45,889 bases of DNA from Bacteroidota bacterium (GTDB taxonomy: Bacteria > Bacteroidota > Bacteroidia > J057 > JAJTIE01): contig JAJTIE010000017.1 in the NCBI GenBank assembly GCA_021300195.1, positions 1 to 45,889 on the forward strand. Direction: 5' to 3'. A model generated the notes under the pieces. The model saw nothing but the letters and a program-made list of their open reading frames with translations. It ran no database searches and was not told the origin of the DNA. Position numbers and translations under genes: made by a program. Numbering within the stretch: position 1 is the stretch's first letter; each line of letters opens with the position of its first letter. This document shows positions 4,165 through 45,426 of this stretch, in pieces.

Positions 4165-5154
4165 TTACTTAACGTGTATCACCTGCTTTTCCACTACATA
4201 GTAGTAGTCCTCTTCTCCATCGCGGCGCAGCATCCACAGCACGGTATTGTTCCCCCTCTGTAGTTCCAGTACATCGGGCAGGTTATAGGTAACGCACACT
4301 TCTGTCTCCTCGCGCTTGTATTGAAAGCTCTGCTTGGCTGTATAGGCCTTCTCGCCATCGGTGGTGGAGAAATAGCCACTGCCCATGGAGGGGGTATGGT
4401 ATATCTTTCCGTCTGGGCCATATAGCAGCATGTACAGGGTTTTCAGTCCCACTTCGGCTACATCGTTTTTCACCAGGGTCAGGCAGCCCTTGAAGCCACG
4501 CATCCGGCGCTGCTTCAGCTGGGGCCCCAGCTCCTCCTTACCACGGCTATTGATGCTGTAGGTCTGTACCCCGCCTGCCTTCAGCATGCTGGCTACTTTT
4601 AGCTTCTCGCGCTGTACAATGTTCTGGCCCTCCAGGGTATAGGTCAGCGTCTGCAGGCTATCCATGCCTGCTGTCAGCTCTGTAATGCGGCCTTCCTTCT
4701 GCCGCAGCACATCCTCCAGCTCCTTTATCTTCTCGCGATACTTTTCGTTGTAATAAGCCAGCTGGCGATACTTGCCCTCATACTCCTCCTTCAGGCGCTT
4801 ATCCAGCGTACCCTCATCTATCGCCTTTTGCAGGCGCACCTTTAGGTACACAATCTCCTCATTCAGCTTCTTCACCATCTCCCGCTTCTCCTCGTTGTCC
4901 AGCTGGGCCTGGCCTAGTGCGCGGTCCAGCTCTTCCACCTTCAGGTCCAGCTGCTCCAGTTCTGCCTTCAGGTCATCGTTCTGCTTTTCCAACTTGTTGT
5001 TATCAGCCTGTATGGTCTCCTTTTGGGTAAAGGTGTAGATAAGCAGGGCACCAAGGATAACCAGCAGGGTAGCCAGAACGTACGGGAAGCTGCGATTCTT
5101 TTTGGGCCTCTTCGGATCCCCGGACGGGGGGGCCAATGGTTGTGTTTCCTCCAT
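4165..5154 (-). CDS. Single-pass membrane protein with long coiled coil
   Basis: I do not recognise a named family. The 329 residues show a proline-rich and basic cytoplasmic N-terminus (1-22), one membrane helix (about 23-42), a long charged coiled coil (about 45-185, heptads rich in L, E, K and Q), and a C-terminal beta-rich periplasmic domain (about 195-329) that ends in 'YYVVEKQVIHVK'. This layout suits an envelope scaffold or sensor. It is the first gene of the five-gene run ending at 501. The ATG at 5154 follows a TAATTTTG element by only four bases, so the start is firm if that element is the promoter. A role in polysaccharide synthesis is suggested only by the downstream genes. Confidence 0.8.
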   Translation of the reverse strand: MEETQPLAPPSGDPKRPKKNRSFPYVLATLLVILGALLIYTFTQKETIQADNNKLEKQNDDLKAELEQLDLKVEELDRALGQAQLDNEEKREMVKKLNEEIVYLKVRLQKAIDEGTLDKRLKEEYEGKYRQLAYYNEKYREKIKELEDVLRQKEGRITELTAGMDSLQTLTYTLEGQNIVQREKLKVASMLKAGGVQTYSINSRGKEELGPQLKQRRMRGFKGCLTLVKNDVAEVGLKTLYMLLYGPDGKIYHTPSMGSGYFSTTDGEKAYTAKQSFQYKREETEVCVTYNLPDVLELQRGNNTVLWMLRRDGEEDYYYVVEKQVIHVK

Positions 5155-5158
5155 AAAA

Positions 5159-5166
5159 CAAAATTA
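5159..5166 (-). promoter_or_regulatory. -7 promoter element TAATTTTG, 4 nt before the ATG
   Basis: TAATTTTG matches TAnnTTTG exactly and is followed by TTTT and then the ATG at 5154. If transcription starts at the usual short distance, the mRNA begins at or next to the start codon. No -33 TTTG is present at 19-20 nt upstream. Confidence 0.6.
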
Positions 5167-5221
5167 AATGCATTCGAGATTCCCTGTGTAGTCGGGGCAG
5201 AAATCTTTCGACAAAGCTACC

Positions 5222-9436: not shown

Positions 9437-9444
9437 TACCTTTG
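9437..9444 (+). promoter_or_regulatory. -7 promoter element TACCTTTG, 5 nt before the GTG
   Basis: An exact TAnnTTTG match precedes the GTG at 9450 by five bases (CACCT). It should drive the TPR-barrel-HU/SPOR-GldB run. It lies at the downstream end of an AT-rich 270-bp gap between divergent genes. No -33 box is seen at the standard distance. Confidence 0.6.
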
Positions 9445-9449
9445 CACCT

Positions 9450-12400
9450 GTGCGCACAGCCACCAGCCTCTCGTACCTACGCATTGGGCTAGCCTGCTCC
9501 GTCATCGTTCTTGCCTCGCAGCTGCCTACCGCCCTGCGGGCACAGCAGTTGCCCGCATTTTATGAGGCCCAGGCCACCTATTTTGATGCGCTTTCGCTGT
9601 TTCAGAAGGAAAGCTATGCGGCGGCCTACGAGAAGTTTCGCACTTATCTGGGCGAAACAGGCCAAGATGACCAGGCACCCCAGCTGCAGCAGCCGGCAGC
9701 CAGCCTGTTGCTGTCCGACGCACGCTTCTACGAGGCACTATGCAGTTTCTATCTCCTGCGCAGCAATACGGAGCTGCTCTTCACCCGCTTTCTACAGGAT
9801 TATCCCCTGCATGCCAAAAGCACGCTGGCCCACTTCTACAAGGCCAAGCTTCTCTTTATAAAGCGCTACTACAGCCAGGTTTACCCGGAGCTGGAGCAGA
9901 TGAACTGGCAGCAGCTGGACGAAGCCCAGCAGGCCGAAGCCAGCTTCATGCAGGGCTTCAGCTACCTGGATGCAAGCAAGCTGGACCAGGCCGCACAGGC
10001 GCTATACCCCCTTACGCAGCAGCTGGGGCCCTGGCACGACCAGGCAAACTACTACCTGGCTATCGTATACTACCGGCAGCAGCAGTATGCCGAAGCCTTC
10101 CGGCTCTTGCAGGCCATCGAGCAGGCACCCAGCTACCAGGCCAAGGTACCCCTATACATAGCCGGCAGCCTGGTGGCCCTGGGCCAGTACCCGCTGGCCG
10201 AAGACTATGCCGATAAACTACAGGCACGCAGGCTAGAGTGGGAGCAGAAGCCCCTACTGTACCGGGAACTGGGCACCGCTATTTATGAAAATGGCCACCT
10301 ACAGAAGGCTCTGCCCTACCTGAGCCACTATGCCGAGGCTGCACCGTCGCCGCAGGATCGTGCCAGCCTTTTCCGGCTGGGCCACTGCCACTATGCCGCC
10401 CAGCAGTACACTGCCGCCACCCGGGTGCTGGAGCCCCTGCTAGCCGGACAGGACAGCCTGGCCAGCGCAGCCAGCTACTACCTGGGTTTCTGCTACCTGC
10501 AGCTGGAGCGACGGGAGGAGGCTCGCCTGGCTTTTCAGACTGCCTACGCCGCCCGGCTGACGACGCCCTTTACCGCCGATGCCCTATTTGAATACGGCAA
10601 GCTATCGCTGGCCACCCAGTACTACACTGCGGCAGAGCAGGCCCTGCGCAGCTACCTGGCCAGCTATCCCACCGCCCCACACACCGAAGAGGCAAACCAG
10701 CTGCTGGGTGAGGTGCTATACTACGGAGGCTCCTTTGCCGAGGCGGTACCCTATTTTGAGAAAAGCCCGATCCAGAATATCCGAACCCGCAAAACCTACC
10801 AGCGCGTGTGCTACTACCACGGCCTCTCGCTGCTGGAAAAGGGGAGTGCCCGGGAGGCCACAGCATTCCTGGAAAAAGCCGTACAGGCCTCGGCAGATGC
10901 CGACTTCACCCAGCGTGCCCGCTTCTGGCTGGGCGAAGCACTGTTCTACCAGAAGCAGTATGAACCAGCACAGCGCAGCTACCAGCAGTTTGTGCACAGC
11001 ACGGGTGCCAGTGGCATGGCCTATTATCCCCAGGCCCTGCTGGGCCTGGGCTGGTGCCAGCTGCGCCGCCAGGCCTATGCCGAGGCGGCCCGCACCTTCC
11101 AGGGTCTGCAGCAGGTACACCGCCTGGCCCAGCTGCAGCCACAGCTGTACCGAGAGGCCGTGGTGCGCCGCGCAGACGCCCTCTTCCTGCAGAAACAATA
11201 CAAGGACGCCAACTTCCTGTATGCCCAGCTGGCAGATAGCACGGGCTACCTGGCCGACTATGCCCTGTACCAGTACGCCCTGTGCCAAAGCCGCATGGAG
11301 CAGCACAAACGGGCCATTGCAAAACTGGAGCTATTCCTGAAAAAGCACCCCAATAGCCCCCTGAACCCCGAGGCACTGTATGCGCTGAGCGAGGAGTACC
11401 TAAGCTGGGAGCACAACGCCAGCCAAGCCAGGGCTTATGCCAACCGCATACTCAGCTCCTACCCGGGTAGCGGCTTTGCAGCACGGGCCCATGTGCTCAT
11501 TGCACAGGCAAACCTGAACCTGGGGCAGGAGCCGGAAGCGATTGATCACTACCGAACCGTACTAGCCCAGTATGGCAACGAGGAAGAACCCGTACGAACG
11601 GCATTTGCCGAACTGAAGCACCTGCTAGGCCCCAGCCAGATAGACAGCCTACTGACTGCCTACGAAAAACAATACCCCGGGGGGCAGACCTTCCTGGACG
11701 ATGCCAGCTTTGCAGCAGCCCGAGACCTGCTACTCATCGACCAGCAGTATCAAGCTGGCGTGGCACGCCTCAGCCGCTTTATCCGCCAGTACCCAAACAG
11801 CCAGCACCTGAATGAAGCCCTGCTACTACGGGGCGAGGGCTACCAGCAGCTGGACTCTACCAGCCTGGCCCTGGCAGACTATGAAGCACTATTTGCCCAA
11901 AGCAGGGTGCCGCCCGAGCTGCTAACACGCGCCCAGCTGCAAGCTGCCTACCTGTACCTGGCCACAGACGCTGGCCGAAGTGCCGAACTGTACAGCCTGG
12001 CAGCCCGCCAGGCAGCCAATAAAATAGACAGTGCCCAGGCCCTAATCGGCTGGGCCGAAGCCCAGGTACGGCTAGGCCAGCCAAAGGAGGCCCGGGCCGT
12101 GCTAAATAACATCTATGGCATGCGCGTGCTACCCGCCTACACCCGGGCTAAAACAGGCCTGATACTGGCAAAACTGGAAGACCAGCTGGGAGACAGTGCC
12201 CAGGCCCTAAAGCTATATGAGGACGTAAGCCGGCTAGAAGCCGGAGCCCTGAGGGCCGAGGCCCTGTACTACACCCTGGAGCTACACTACCGCCAGGGAG
12301 CCTATACCAGGCTAAGAGACAGCCTGTATGCCCAGAAGGCCCTGCTGCGAAACCAGGACTACTGGCAGGCCAAGGCCTACCTGCTGCTAGCCAATGCCTT

Positions 12401-12668
12401 CTGGCAGCTGGAGCAGCACCAGCAGGCACTGGAGACCCTGCGCTCCATTGCCCTGCACGCCCAAGACCCCGGCCTGAAAACGCAGGCCAGCCAGCTGCTG
12501 GAGACGCGGACCAAGGCCCTGGAAGCCCTGCAGGCCGAAAATGCCGCACGCCTGCAAGAAAAAGCAGCGGCAGAAAAAGCCAAACTGCTGAAAGAAGAGC
12601 GTGCCGATCCGGTAGAAGAAGTTTCCCCCAAAGACCCCCGACTCGATGAGGCCAAGCCCAGAAAATAA
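9450..12668 (+). CDS. Large periplasmic TPR-repeat protein
   Basis: A 1072-residue exported protein built almost wholly of tetratricopeptide repeats. The start is a GTG at 9450. Residues 1-31 form a signal peptide ending 'ALRAQ'. From about residue 35 to 1010 there are many TPR-type helix pairs with the usual small-large alternation (for example 'YAAAYEKFRTYL', 'AEEALR'-like A/Y patterns and 'ALYALSEEYLS'). The C-terminal 60 residues are a charged Ala/Glu/Lys coiled tail. TPR arrays bind protein partners, and in Bacteroidota such long TPR proteins are often encoded directly before an outer-membrane barrel, as here. I infer a periplasmic scaffold for the barrel encoded next, with which the gene overlaps by 23 nt. 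No enzyme domain is visible. Confidence 0.85.
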   Translation: MRTATSLSYLRIGLACSVIVLASQLPTALRAQQLPAFYEAQATYFDALSLFQKESYAAAYEKFRTYLGETGQDDQAPQLQQPAASLLLSDARFYEALCSFYLLRSNTELLFTRFLQDYPLHAKSTLAHFYKAKLLFIKRYYSQVYPELEQMNWQQLDEAQQAEASFMQGFSYLDASKLDQAAQALYPLTQQLGPWHDQANYYLAIVYYRQQQYAEAFRLLQAIEQAPSYQAKVPLYIAGSLVALGQYPLAEDYADKLQARRLEWEQKPLLYRELGTAIYENGHLQKALPYLSHYAEAAPSPQDRASLFRLGHCHYAAQQYTAATRVLEPLLAGQDSLASAASYYLGFCYLQLERREEARLAFQTAYAARLTTPFTADALFEYGKLSLATQYYTAAEQALRSYLASYPTAPHTEEANQLLGEVLYYGGSFAEAVPYFEKSPIQNIRTRKTYQRVCYYHGLSLLEKGSAREATAFLEKAVQASADADFTQRARFWLGEALFYQKQYEPAQRSYQQFVHSTGASGMAYYPQALLGLGWCQLRRQAYAEAARTFQGLQQVHRLAQLQPQLYREAVVRRADALFLQKQYKDANFLYAQLADSTGYLADYALYQYALCQSRMEQHKRAIAKLELFLKKHPNSPLNPEALYALSEEYLSWEHNASQARAYANRILSSYPGSGFAARAHVLIAQANLNLGQEPEAIDHYRTVLAQYGNEEEPVRTAFAELKHLLGPSQIDSLLTAYEKQYPGGQTFLDDASFAAARDLLLIDQQYQAGVARLSRFIRQYPNSQHLNEALLLRGEGYQQLDSTSLALADYEALFAQSRVPPELLTRAQLQAAYLYLATDAGRSAELYSLAARQAANKIDSAQALIGWAEAQVRLGQPKEARAVLNNIYGMRVLPAYTRAKTGLILAKLEDQLGDSAQALKLYEDVSRLEAGALRAEALYYTLELHYRQGAYTRLRDSLYAQKALLRNQDYWQAKAYLLLANAFWQLEQHQQALETLRSIALHAQDPGLKTQASQLLETRTKALEALQAENAARLQEKAAAEKAKLLKEERADPVEEVSPKDPRLDEAKPRK

Positions 12669-21060: not shown

Positions 21061-22002
21061 CTAAATCTCTTCTCCGGCCAGGTATCTGCGCACTATTCCG
21101 AGGGTTTGATCCACAAACCGCTGCTCGGCCTGCCAGCTCCAGCCGGCTATGTGGGGGGTAAGGATGACGGAGGGATGGGCCTGTAGGGCCTGCATCTGCC
21201 GCTGCTGCACAGCCGTTAGCCGATCCAGCTTTTCGTTCTCCAGCACATCCAGGGCCGCACCCAGCACCCGCCCACTGGCCAGGGCGGATAGTAGGGCCTG
21301 TGTATCTACCACAGGCCCCCTGCTGGTGTTTACAAGCCACAGCGGTTGTGCAAAGCCAGCCAGCCGGCGGGCATCTAGCCAGTGGTGGTTGGCCGGGTCT
21401 AGCGGGATATGCAGGCTGAGCACCTGGCACTGTGCCTGCAGTGCGGCAAGGGGTGCGGCCTCGGCGTAGGCATCGGCATAGTCGGCCTGGTCTCTGTCGT
21501 AGGCCAACACGCGCACCCCCAGGCCTGCCAGCCGGCGGGCAAAGGCCCTGCCGGTGTGGCCATAGCCCACAATGCCCACTACCTTGCCGCCCAATTCTTC
21601 GCCCATATTGGCCTGGCGCAGCCACTGGCCCCTCCGCACCTCGGCATCGGAGCGGGGTATGTGGTGTAGCAGGCCCAGCAGCAGGCCCAGCGCATGCTCG
21701 CCCACTGCATCGCTATTAGCCCCCAGGGTAGGCACCACCCGGATGCCGGCTGCCGCCAGGGCTGGCAGATCCAGGTGGTCCAGGCCTGCGCCGGTGCGGA
21801 TAACCAGGCGCAGCCGGGGGGCCTGCCGTAGCTGATCGGCTGTAAGGGCCAGCTTGCTCCGCAGCACCAGCACCTCGGCATCGGCCAGGGCCAGGGTCGC
21901 CTCTGTGCCGGTGCAGTCGGGCACATAGCGGTAGGTAAGGCCTAGCTGCCCCAAGCCCTCTATCATACTATCCAGGTATCGGTCTATCAGAACCACATGC
22001 AT
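21061..22002 (-). CDS. D-isomer-specific 2-hydroxyacid dehydrogenase
   Basis: A 313-residue NAD(P)-dependent enzyme that oxidises a D-2-hydroxyacid to the 2-keto acid, or the reverse. The NAD-binding fold has GIVGYGHTG (about 143-151). The catalytic set is Arg in 'NTSRGPVVD' (about 228), Glu in 'VLENEKL' (about 255-257) and His in 'LTPHIAGWS' (about 284). Relatives include D-3-phosphoglycerate dehydrogenase (SerA). There is no ACT domain, so the serine-pathway assignment is only possible. The frame is open from 22071, but I chose the ATG at 22002: MHVVLIDRYL begins the first beta strand, and a TACCTTTG element ends four bases upstream. It is the first gene of the run with the histidine kinase. 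Confidence 0.88.
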   Translation of the reverse strand: MHVVLIDRYLDSMIEGLGQLGLTYRYVPDCTGTEATLALADAEVLVLRSKLALTADQLRQAPRLRLVIRTGAGLDHLDLPALAAAGIRVVPTLGANSDAVGEHALGLLLGLLHHIPRSDAEVRRGQWLRQANMGEELGGKVVGIVGYGHTGRAFARRLAGLGVRVLAYDRDQADYADAYAEAAPLAALQAQCQVLSLHIPLDPANHHWLDARRLAGFAQPLWLVNTSRGPVVDTQALLSALASGRVLGAALDVLENEKLDRLTAVQQRQMQALQAHPSVILTPHIAGWSWQAEQRFVDQTLGIVRRYLAGEEI

Positions 22003-22006
22003 GCCA

Positions 22007-22014
22007 CAAAGGTA
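22007..22014 (-). promoter_or_regulatory. -7 promoter element TACCTTTG, 4 nt before the ATG
   Basis: An exact TAnnTTTG match on the minus strand, followed by TGGC and the ATG at 22002. It supports the shorter start of the dehydrogenase and suggests a leaderless mRNA. It lies back to back with the plus-strand element at 22054. Confidence 0.6.
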
Positions 22015-43443: not shown

Positions 43444-44697
43444 CTATGCCTGTATCGGATCTTTCAGTTTTTCCAGCACAATCTGGTTGCGCGTCAGGTC
43501 TTCCAGTGTTTCGGCCTTGCGAATCAGGTGCGCTTCTCCCCCGTATAGCAGCACCTCGGCAGGGCGCAGTCTGCTATTATAGTTACTACTCATTACATAG
43601 CCGTAGGCTCCTGCATTGTGTATAGCCAGGATGTCGCCCTCGCGCACCTCATTCAGTGGGCGGTCTGCACCCAGTGTATCTGTCTCGCATATGTATCCCA
43701 CTACGGTATAGATGCGGGTAGTGCCCTTCGGGTTGCTCACATTTGTTATCTGGTGGTAGGCATCGTATAGCATAGGGCGAATCAGGTGGTTCAGTCCGCT
43801 ATTAACTCCTACAAAAACGGTGCTCACCGTTGTCTTGATCATGTTGGCCGACACGAGCAGATAGCCCGCCTCGCTCACCAGAAACTTTCCGGGCTCAAAC
43901 CATAGCTCCAGCTCGCGCCCATATTCTTCGCAGAAACCACGAAACCGCTCGGCAATCTTTTTGCCAAGGCGCTCTACATCGGTGTAAATATCTGCGGCCG
44001 AGTAGGGCACACGAAAGCCTGAGCCAAAGTCCAGGTACTTCAGGTCCGGAAACTCAAAGGCAGCCTCCAGCATTACGTCGGCAGCTGCCAGAAACACGTC
44101 CGCATCCAGGATATCCGATCCGGTGTGCATGTGTAGGCCGTCGATACTCATGCTGTGTGCCTGTACAATGCGTAGGACATGGCGCAGCTGGTGGATGCTG
44201 ATACCAAACTTACTGTCTATATGGCCGGTGCTGATCTTGCTATTTCCGCCGGCCAGTATGTGGGGGTTCAGGCGGACACATACGGGTACGCTACCCCCAT
44301 AGGCGTGGCCAAACTGCTCCAGGATGGTGATGCTGTCGATATTGATGCGCACACCCAGCGCTGCAGCCTGCTGATACTCGCTGAACGAGACCGCGTTGGG
44401 CGTAAACAGGATCTCCTCGGGCGCAAAGCCTGCCTGAAGGCAAAGCTCAATCTCCTGGATAGACACGGCATCTATACCACTGCCGCAGTTTCGGAGCAGC
44501 CGAAGGATATTCAGGTTCGAGAGGGCCTTGCAGGCGTATTTTATATGCAGGTCTACACCCGGAAAAGCAGCCTTCAGGCGCTGGTATTGCGAAGTGATTT
44601 TCTCCGCATGATACACATATACCGGGCTGCCATACTGCTTTACGATTGACAGGGCAGGCACGTCTCCTATTACATACTGTCCGTTTACAAGTTCCAT
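43444..44697 (-). CDS. lysA: Diaminopimelate decarboxylase
   Basis: A 417-residue PLP enzyme that decarboxylates meso-diaminopimelate to L-lysine, the last step of lysine synthesis. The alanine-racemase-fold N-terminal barrel has the PLP-lysine motif in 'IKYACKALSN' (about 53-62), 'GLHMHTGSDI' and 'LDFGSGFRVPY'. The C-terminal domain has the active-site Cys in 'VVGYICETDTLG' and 'NAGAYGYVMSSNYN' for substrate and PLP contacts. The open frame begins with a TTG at 44703. The ATG at 44697 (MELVNGQY) is the likely start. It ends 13 nt before the pyrG promoter element, so some readthrough into pyrG is possible. No promoter element was recognised. Confidence 0.95.
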   Translation of the reverse strand: MELVNGQYVIGDVPALSIVKQYGSPVYVYHAEKITSQYQRLKAAFPGVDLHIKYACKALSNLNILRLLRNCGSGIDAVSIQEIELCLQAGFAPEEILFTPNAVSFSEYQQAAALGVRINIDSITILEQFGHAYGGSVPVCVRLNPHILAGGNSKISTGHIDSKFGISIHQLRHVLRIVQAHSMSIDGLHMHTGSDILDADVFLAAADVMLEAAFEFPDLKYLDFGSGFRVPYSAADIYTDVERLGKKIAERFRGFCEEYGRELELWFEPGKFLVSEAGYLLVSANMIKTTVSTVFVGVNSGLNHLIRPMLYDAYHQITNVSNPKGTTRIYTVVGYICETDTLGADRPLNEVREGDILAIHNAGAYGYVMSSNYNSRLRPAEVLLYGGEAHLIRKAETLEDLTRNQIVLEKLKDPIQA

Positions 44698-44833
44698 TAC
44701 CAATACACAGTTAAACTAAACACCAACCTGGCGATGCCCCTGGCACAAGCATGCCAAAGGCGGCGCAAATTTCCGGATTTTTTTACCGGTATCAAAAGAC
44801 CCTGTCCGTAGGGGACGAAATGCTTGTTTTGGC

Positions 44834-44841
44834 TACTTTTG
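44834..44841 (+). promoter_or_regulatory. -7 promoter element TACTTTTG, 3 nt before the ATG
   Basis: An exact TAnnTTTG match followed by TGT and the ATG at 44845 of miaE. The closest spacing of the leaderless set. It rules against the TTG at 44824 as the start, because that codon would be upstream of the promoter. Confidence 0.6.
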
Positions 44842-44844
44842 TGT

Positions 44845-45426
44845 ATGCTGGGCCTAAGGCTAAAAACCGACCTTCGCTGGGCTGCGCTAGCCGAGCACAA
44901 CCTGCAGGCGCTCCTGGTAGACCATGCCTACTGCGAGCAGAAAGCTGCCAGCAGTGCCATTTCGCTGATTGTGCACTTTCCGGAGCACGCCCCACTGGTG
45001 CAGGCCATGAGCCGGATAGCGCAGGAAGAGATGTTGCACTTTGAGCAGGTGCACCAGAAACTGCTGGAGCGGGGCTGGAAGCTGGGGCGCGAGCGAAAAG
45101 ACCCCTATGTGCACGACCTGATGGCCTTTGTACAGAAAGACAAGGGCCGTAGCCAGCTGCTGCTGGACCGCCTGCTGTTTGCCGCCATGATAGAGGCCCG
45201 CAGCTGCGAGCGCTTCCGCCTGCTAAGCACAACCATAGCCGACCAAGACCTGCGCAGCTTCTACCACGAACTGATGGTAAGCGAAGCCAACCACTATGTA
45301 ACCTTCCTGGACCTGGCACGCACCTACTGCGGACGCCAGGCCGCAGACAGCCGCTGGCAGCAGTGGCTGGCCTACGAGGAGGAGGTCATCACACGGTATG
45401 GCCACGCCCCCACGATGCATGGCTAG
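44845..45426 (+). CDS. miaE: tRNA-(ms2io6A37) hydroxylase, MiaE
   Basis: A 193-residue ferritin-like non-heme diiron enzyme that hydroxylates the isopentenyl group of ms2i6A at position 37 of tRNAs. The four-helix-bundle metal ligands are visible: Glu near 'LVDHAYCEQKAA', 'AQEEMLHFEQVH' (E-x2-H), 'MIEARSCERF' (Glu on helix 3) and 'SEANHYVTFLDLA' (E-x2-H). Length fits the family. The ATG at 44845 starts MLGLRLKTDLRW. It diverges from lysA and is probably monocistronic. A short 7-bp hairpin (45429-45444) follows the stop. Confidence 0.93.
   Translation: MLGLRLKTDLRWAALAEHNLQALLVDHAYCEQKAASSAISLIVHFPEHAPLVQAMSRIAQEEMLHFEQVHQKLLERGWKLGRERKDPYVHDLMAFVQKDKGRSQLLLDRLLFAAMIEARSCERFRLLSTTIADQDLRSFYHELMVSEANHYVTFLDLARTYCGRQAADSRWQQWLAYEEEVITRYGHAPTMHG

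Follow-up and report, generated by a model that had tools for sequence, protein, structure and literature searches.

The upstream regions of four genes in the window analysed here, the whole stretch of 45,889 nucleotides from a Bacteroidota bacterium (contig C17 of a 2.67 Mb assembly in 71 contigs), raise the question of whether an exact TAnnTTTG element lying a few bases before a start codon gives rise to a leaderless mRNA and, if so, whether such elements define a promoter class of their own. The elements and the genes that follow them are:

5159-5166, minus strand: -7 element TAATTTTG, 4 nt (TTTT) upstream of ATG 5154 of gene 4165-5154
4165-5154, minus strand: gene for a coiled-coil protein without confident Pfam family, predicted leaderless mRNA
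9437-9444, plus strand: -7 element TACCTTTG, 5 nt (CACCT) upstream of GTG 9450
9450-12668, plus strand: gene for a TPR-repeat protein whose N terminus resembles a signal peptide; GTG start, leaderless mRNA predicted
22007-22014, minus strand: -7 element TACCTTTG, 4 nt (TGGC) upstream of ATG 22002
21061-22002, minus strand: gene for a D-isomer-specific 2-hydroxyacid dehydrogenase (PF00389/PF02826)
44834-44841, plus strand: -7 element TACTTTTG, 3 nt (TGT) upstream of ATG 44845
44845-45426, plus strand: gene for a MiaE-type tRNA hydroxylase (PF06175), start backed by aligned orthologous N termini

On re-reading the window, the coordinates, spacers and start codons of the four elements all proved correct, and the dehydrogenase gene was found to start at ATG 22002, not at the ATG 22071 of the longest open reading frame. 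The original prediction had put the number of such cases expected by chance at 0.03, and the same value at 3-5 nt is returned when the 60-nt upstream regions of 30 called genes undergo dinucleotide shuffling, as opposed to the four observed (Poisson p = 3e-8). TAnnTTTG shows no overall excess in the window (18 matches vs 18.5 expected) and the signal therefore resides in its position. The reported absence of a -33 box at normal spacing was likewise borne out, with TTG present in the -33 zone of none of the four (0/4). A further exact TAnnTTTG occurs at 5212-5219, 57 nt from ATG 5154, and gene 4165-5154 may thus possess tandem leaderless and leadered promoters. At the other end of the window (43444-45426), a PLP-dependent decarboxylase gene and the MiaE gene form a divergent pair, and this arrangement is retained on contig C70 of G001, a genome of the same family.

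The spacing seen in the window recurs across the genome. The sample comprised 1.2 Mb, or 45% of the genome, taken in 20-kb stretches and with a GC content of 58%; in it, 969 genes were called by codon-usage scores with a simple caller that picked starts blind to promoters. Enrichment over shuffled upstream regions, which the original prediction had anticipated, is marked: 47 genes carry the exact element at 3-5 nt, compared to 1.1 in shuffles. Denoting by k the number of nucleotides between an exact TAnnTTTG and the start codon, the counts per distance for the 969 genes are 9, 23, 14, 6, 6 and 1 for k = 3 to 8 and 2, 2, 0, 2, 0 and 1 for k = 9 to 14, followed by 0 to 5 per distance up to about 50 (these counts stem from a first run, and the figure of 47 from a re-run gene set). 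The profile thus rises sharply at 4-5 nt, thins out at 9-14 nt and continues as a wide leadered group from 15 to 50 nt, with 60 observed vs 2.3 in shuffles at k = 3-8 and 84 vs 13 at k = 15-50. The thin zone is marginal (p = 0.03) and unclear in G063, another member of the class, where the spacings show a decaying tail, and hence we do not claim the gap as general.

Rearranged control motifs yielded no peak comparable to that of TAnnTTTG in the genome sample, and the one-mismatch variant TAnnTTTA gave a small one (6 at k = 4 and 7 at k = 5), as would be expected of a degenerate -7 box. Chance and AT-richness are therefore refuted as sources of the signal by the shuffles and the rearranged motifs. 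When degenerate boxes are allowed for in a mixture model, 16.7% of genes are assigned to k = 3-8, 2.9% to k = 9-14 and 24.5% to k = 15-50, with none at k = 0-2. Over the whole genome, TAnnTTTG-N4-ATG occurs 80 times and the reversed control pattern 16 times; the corresponding figures are 15 vs 22 for N12 and 19 vs 10 for N25. ATG starts are overrepresented in the leaderless set (56/59, p = 0.016). No sequence family dominates this set, 55 of its proteins spanning 102 Pfam families, and this diversity rules out mobile or repeated elements as the source of the signal. As for Shine-Dalgarno (SD) sequences, which the original prediction held to be lacking, SD-like motifs do not rise above chance (17 of 959 genes vs 22 in shuffles); no match to a 16S gene was found in the assembly. 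One protein has its closest named relatives, at 64-66% identity, in a Microscillaceae MAG, Thermonema and uncultured Bacteroidetes, which suggests no more than a lineage near Cytophagales. A separate observation concerns locus L047 (14212-16887), which encodes an 892-aa protein with D-Ala-D-Ala ligase matches at residues ~2-220 and 584-881, as though it had arisen by duplication or fusion.

The best explanation for the four elements, and one that we regard as very probable, is that they are ordinary primary-sigma -7 boxes yielding leaderless or near-leaderless mRNAs. The leaderless reading of the original prediction is supported by the genome-wide enrichment at a fitting spacing, by the lack of an SD signal and by conservation between orthologues. 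According to this reading, the elements would be the usual -7 boxes of the Bacteroidetes primary sigma factor, set unusually near the start codon. The start site of F. johnsoniae promoters lies 4-5 nt after the -7 box (PMC6847099) and, since this distance matches the peak at k = 4-5, the peak would put the start site on the A of the ATG, with the -7 to start-site distance being borrowed from Flavobacterium. Transcription would begin on the first base of the start codon at spacings of 4-5, and within a few bases of it at spacings of 3 or 6-8. A spacing of 3 combined with a distance of 4-5 nt would, however, place the start site inside the codon, so that genes like that of MiaE would need a shorter distance or another start. 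The 5'-terminal AUG, or occasionally GUG, would presumably be recognised directly, without SD contact; both the 5' termini of the mRNAs and the way in which ribosomes enter are inferred here. Genes would come in two standard arrangements, with ~17% leaderless, ~25% with the box at 15-50 nt and few in between. About one in six genes (~17%) thus appears to be leaderless or nearly so in this genome, and such genes make up about 40% of its detectable promoters, as predicted from promoter-to-start spacing. Among the individual genes, that of IF-2 (L059:10758-13634, contig C10) has an exact -7 box 7 nt upstream of its ATG, and at 8 nt in G001. IF-2 favours leaderless translation, and its own predicted near-leaderless mRNA is for this reason worth a look.

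Comparison with related genomes points to conservation of the arrangement. Within the 648 kb of G001 that were examined, 7 of 13 orthologues of leaderless genes carry an exact element at k = 3-8, whereas among other genes the count is 2 of 118 (p = 5e-7). An eighth pair has its box 3 nt from an ATG that lies a little upstream of the aligned codon. Some orthologues among the rest have a box with one or two mismatches in the same place, and one conserved leaderless pair uses a GTG start in both species. The MiaE box is found at k = 3 in both this genome and G001, and at k = 4 in G003 and G009, which belong to another family of the same order, and the upstream DNA has otherwise diverged. Elsewhere in the order, any exact element up to 75 nt from the MiaE start lies at 16-65 nt, with none between 5 and 15. 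To judge from these alignments, the arrangement is selected, with orthologues retaining the element while the surrounding sequence diverges.

Other accounts of the same pattern have to be weighed against the reading of ordinary boxes yielding leaderless mRNAs. Bacteroidetes start regions are AT-rich (PMC3155529), as they are here at -6 to -14, and the enrichment could be conceived as arising from the AT-rich composition of translation initiation regions, with no relation to promoters; yet dinucleotide shuffles of the very same regions yield 1.1 cases where 47 are observed, and neither rearranged nor reversed motifs show comparable enrichment, which leaves this account hardly credible. It is also quite unlikely, if somewhat less so, that the starts were mis-called and that the true start codons lie downstream, behind ordinary short leaders. 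Start calling from DNA is uncertain and some calls could be wrong, but calls made blind to promoters still converge on one fixed spacing, and the start codon of MiaE falls at the same residue in nearly all aligned orthologues.

A further account builds on the distinct promoter class suggested in the original prediction and has the leaderless genes driven through a separate sigma factor or in a way that does not depend on a -33 box. It could draw on the lack of a -33 box in all four elements and on modest preferences of the leaderless set relative to the leadered one, for C at -9 (p = 0.004) and for C/G over A/T at -13 (p = 0.002), both uncorrected, which may instead reflect stronger core boxes or local composition. 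The account fails, however, on the leadered promoters, which are also devoid of a -33 box: TTG occurs in the -33 zone of 7/59 leaderless and 17/84 leadered promoters, with a background of 16%, so that the missing box marks no class. Aligned logos of leaderless and leadered promoters share the TAnnTTTG core, the avoidance of G at -10 and -9 and an AT-rich stretch at -16 to -19, and the promoters of F. johnsoniae themselves show little at -33 (PMC6847099). General housekeeping genes such as valS, cysS, infB and purK are among the leaderless ones, and nothing points to a regulon. RpoD_Cterm has one match in the genome, and the primary sigma factor is of the usual Bacteroidetes type without region 1.1, as judged from the likely N terminus of RpoD, which leaves no room for that region. 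Both the -7 element TAnnTTTG and a primary sigma without region 1.1 are thus found here, as in sigma-A(Bfr)-type systems. The -33 element TTTG of such promoters is absent from leaderless and leadered promoters alike, and it was not treated as defining because it is scarcely detectable in F. johnsoniae as well (PMC6847099). We consequently deem a separate promoter class improbable, albeit less so than the two preceding accounts.

The leaderless arrangement varies widely among other genomes of the class. The same pipeline, which returns 60 leaderless (k = 3-8) and 93 leadered (k = 15-59) promoters here, gives 40 vs 17 in the G063 sample, 28 vs 20 in that of G059, 7 vs 24 in G001 and 0 vs 29 in G092. 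The larger stretches of G063 and G059 came from contigs known to hold pattern matches, and their leaderless share is therefore maybe somewhat high; still, whole-genome counts of TAnnTTTG-N4-ATG, which are independent of the choice of stretch, agree (178 vs 23 for the control in the 2.2 Mb of G063, and 356 vs 75 in the 2.9 Mb of G059). Both genomes have a stronger leaderless signal than that of the window. Among 100 members of the class, 40 exceed the control (p < 1e-4), and 23 of these 40, in 17 of 62 families, also exceed the leadered pattern at k = 25. The k = 4 pattern is not enriched in most genomes of other classes of the phylum. Overall, the leaderless share of detectable promoters ranges from 0% to ~60% among the Bacteroidia genomes sampled.

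On the strength of RNA work on three members, leaderless mRNAs have come to be seen as a minor contributor in the phylum. Our analysis suggests otherwise: we consider it likely that leaderless mRNA is a major way for genes to start in Bacteroidota, and the foremost one in some lineages, with a share running from none to ~60%, and that it has been repeatedly gained or lost, because the share spans that whole range between lineages of one class. The backdrop to these gains and losses is one in which SD sequences are hardly used, and the result bears on how start codons are chosen in SD-less Bacteroidota. If it is true for this genome, G063 and G059, lineages range from almost none to mostly leaderless and, with the same box and the same lack of SD sequences across the range, they would provide a natural experiment on leaderless translation. 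In these lineages, the spacing of the -7 box should guide start-codon annotation and expression design.

Among known systems, the closest likeness is to the sigma-A(Bfr) promoter of B. fragilis, F. johnsoniae and F. psychrophilum (PMC6847099, PMC9723704), with which the promoters studied here share the TAnnTTTG core, the avoidance of G at -10/-9, a weak or absent -33 element, AT-richness near -18 and a sigma factor without region 1.1. They depart from known cases in the large share of elements located 3-8 nt from the start codon. The predicted transcripts are of the same kind as the leaderless mRNAs described in other Bacteroidetes, also hosts without SD sequences, and the difference lies in their proportion. 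In B. thetaiotaomicron 3.7% of 5' UTRs are under 10 nt (PMC7366714), F. psychrophilum has 5.5% leaderless transcripts (PMC9723704) and 13% in F. johnsoniae have leaders of 10 nt or less (PMC6847099), whereas we predict ~40% of detectable promoters here and ~60% in G063 and G059; the former shares are RNA-measured and the latter promoter-based, and they represent different quantities. Leaderless mRNAs nonetheless appear to be far commoner here than reported for well-studied members of the phylum. A previous survey, which relied on a sigma-70-like motif and cautioned that other promoter types would be missed, predicted leaderless genes for just 1 of 37 Bacteroidetes/Chlorobi genomes, where they made up 2.4% (PMC3160421). 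No paper with a phylum-wide spacing profile for the TAnnTTTG promoter was found in a search that left out most subscription journals. In Actinobacteria and Deinococcus-Thermus, that survey predicted leaderless genes from TA-like signals ~10-12 bp before the start, at average gene shares of 19% and 39% (PMC3160421), comparable to the one obtained here. As in those groups, a fixed short distance from box to start is combined with a mixture of leaderless and leadered genes, but the promoter motif and the sigma factor are different and there is no SD alternative here. This genome would present a known kind of transcript in an unusually high proportion.
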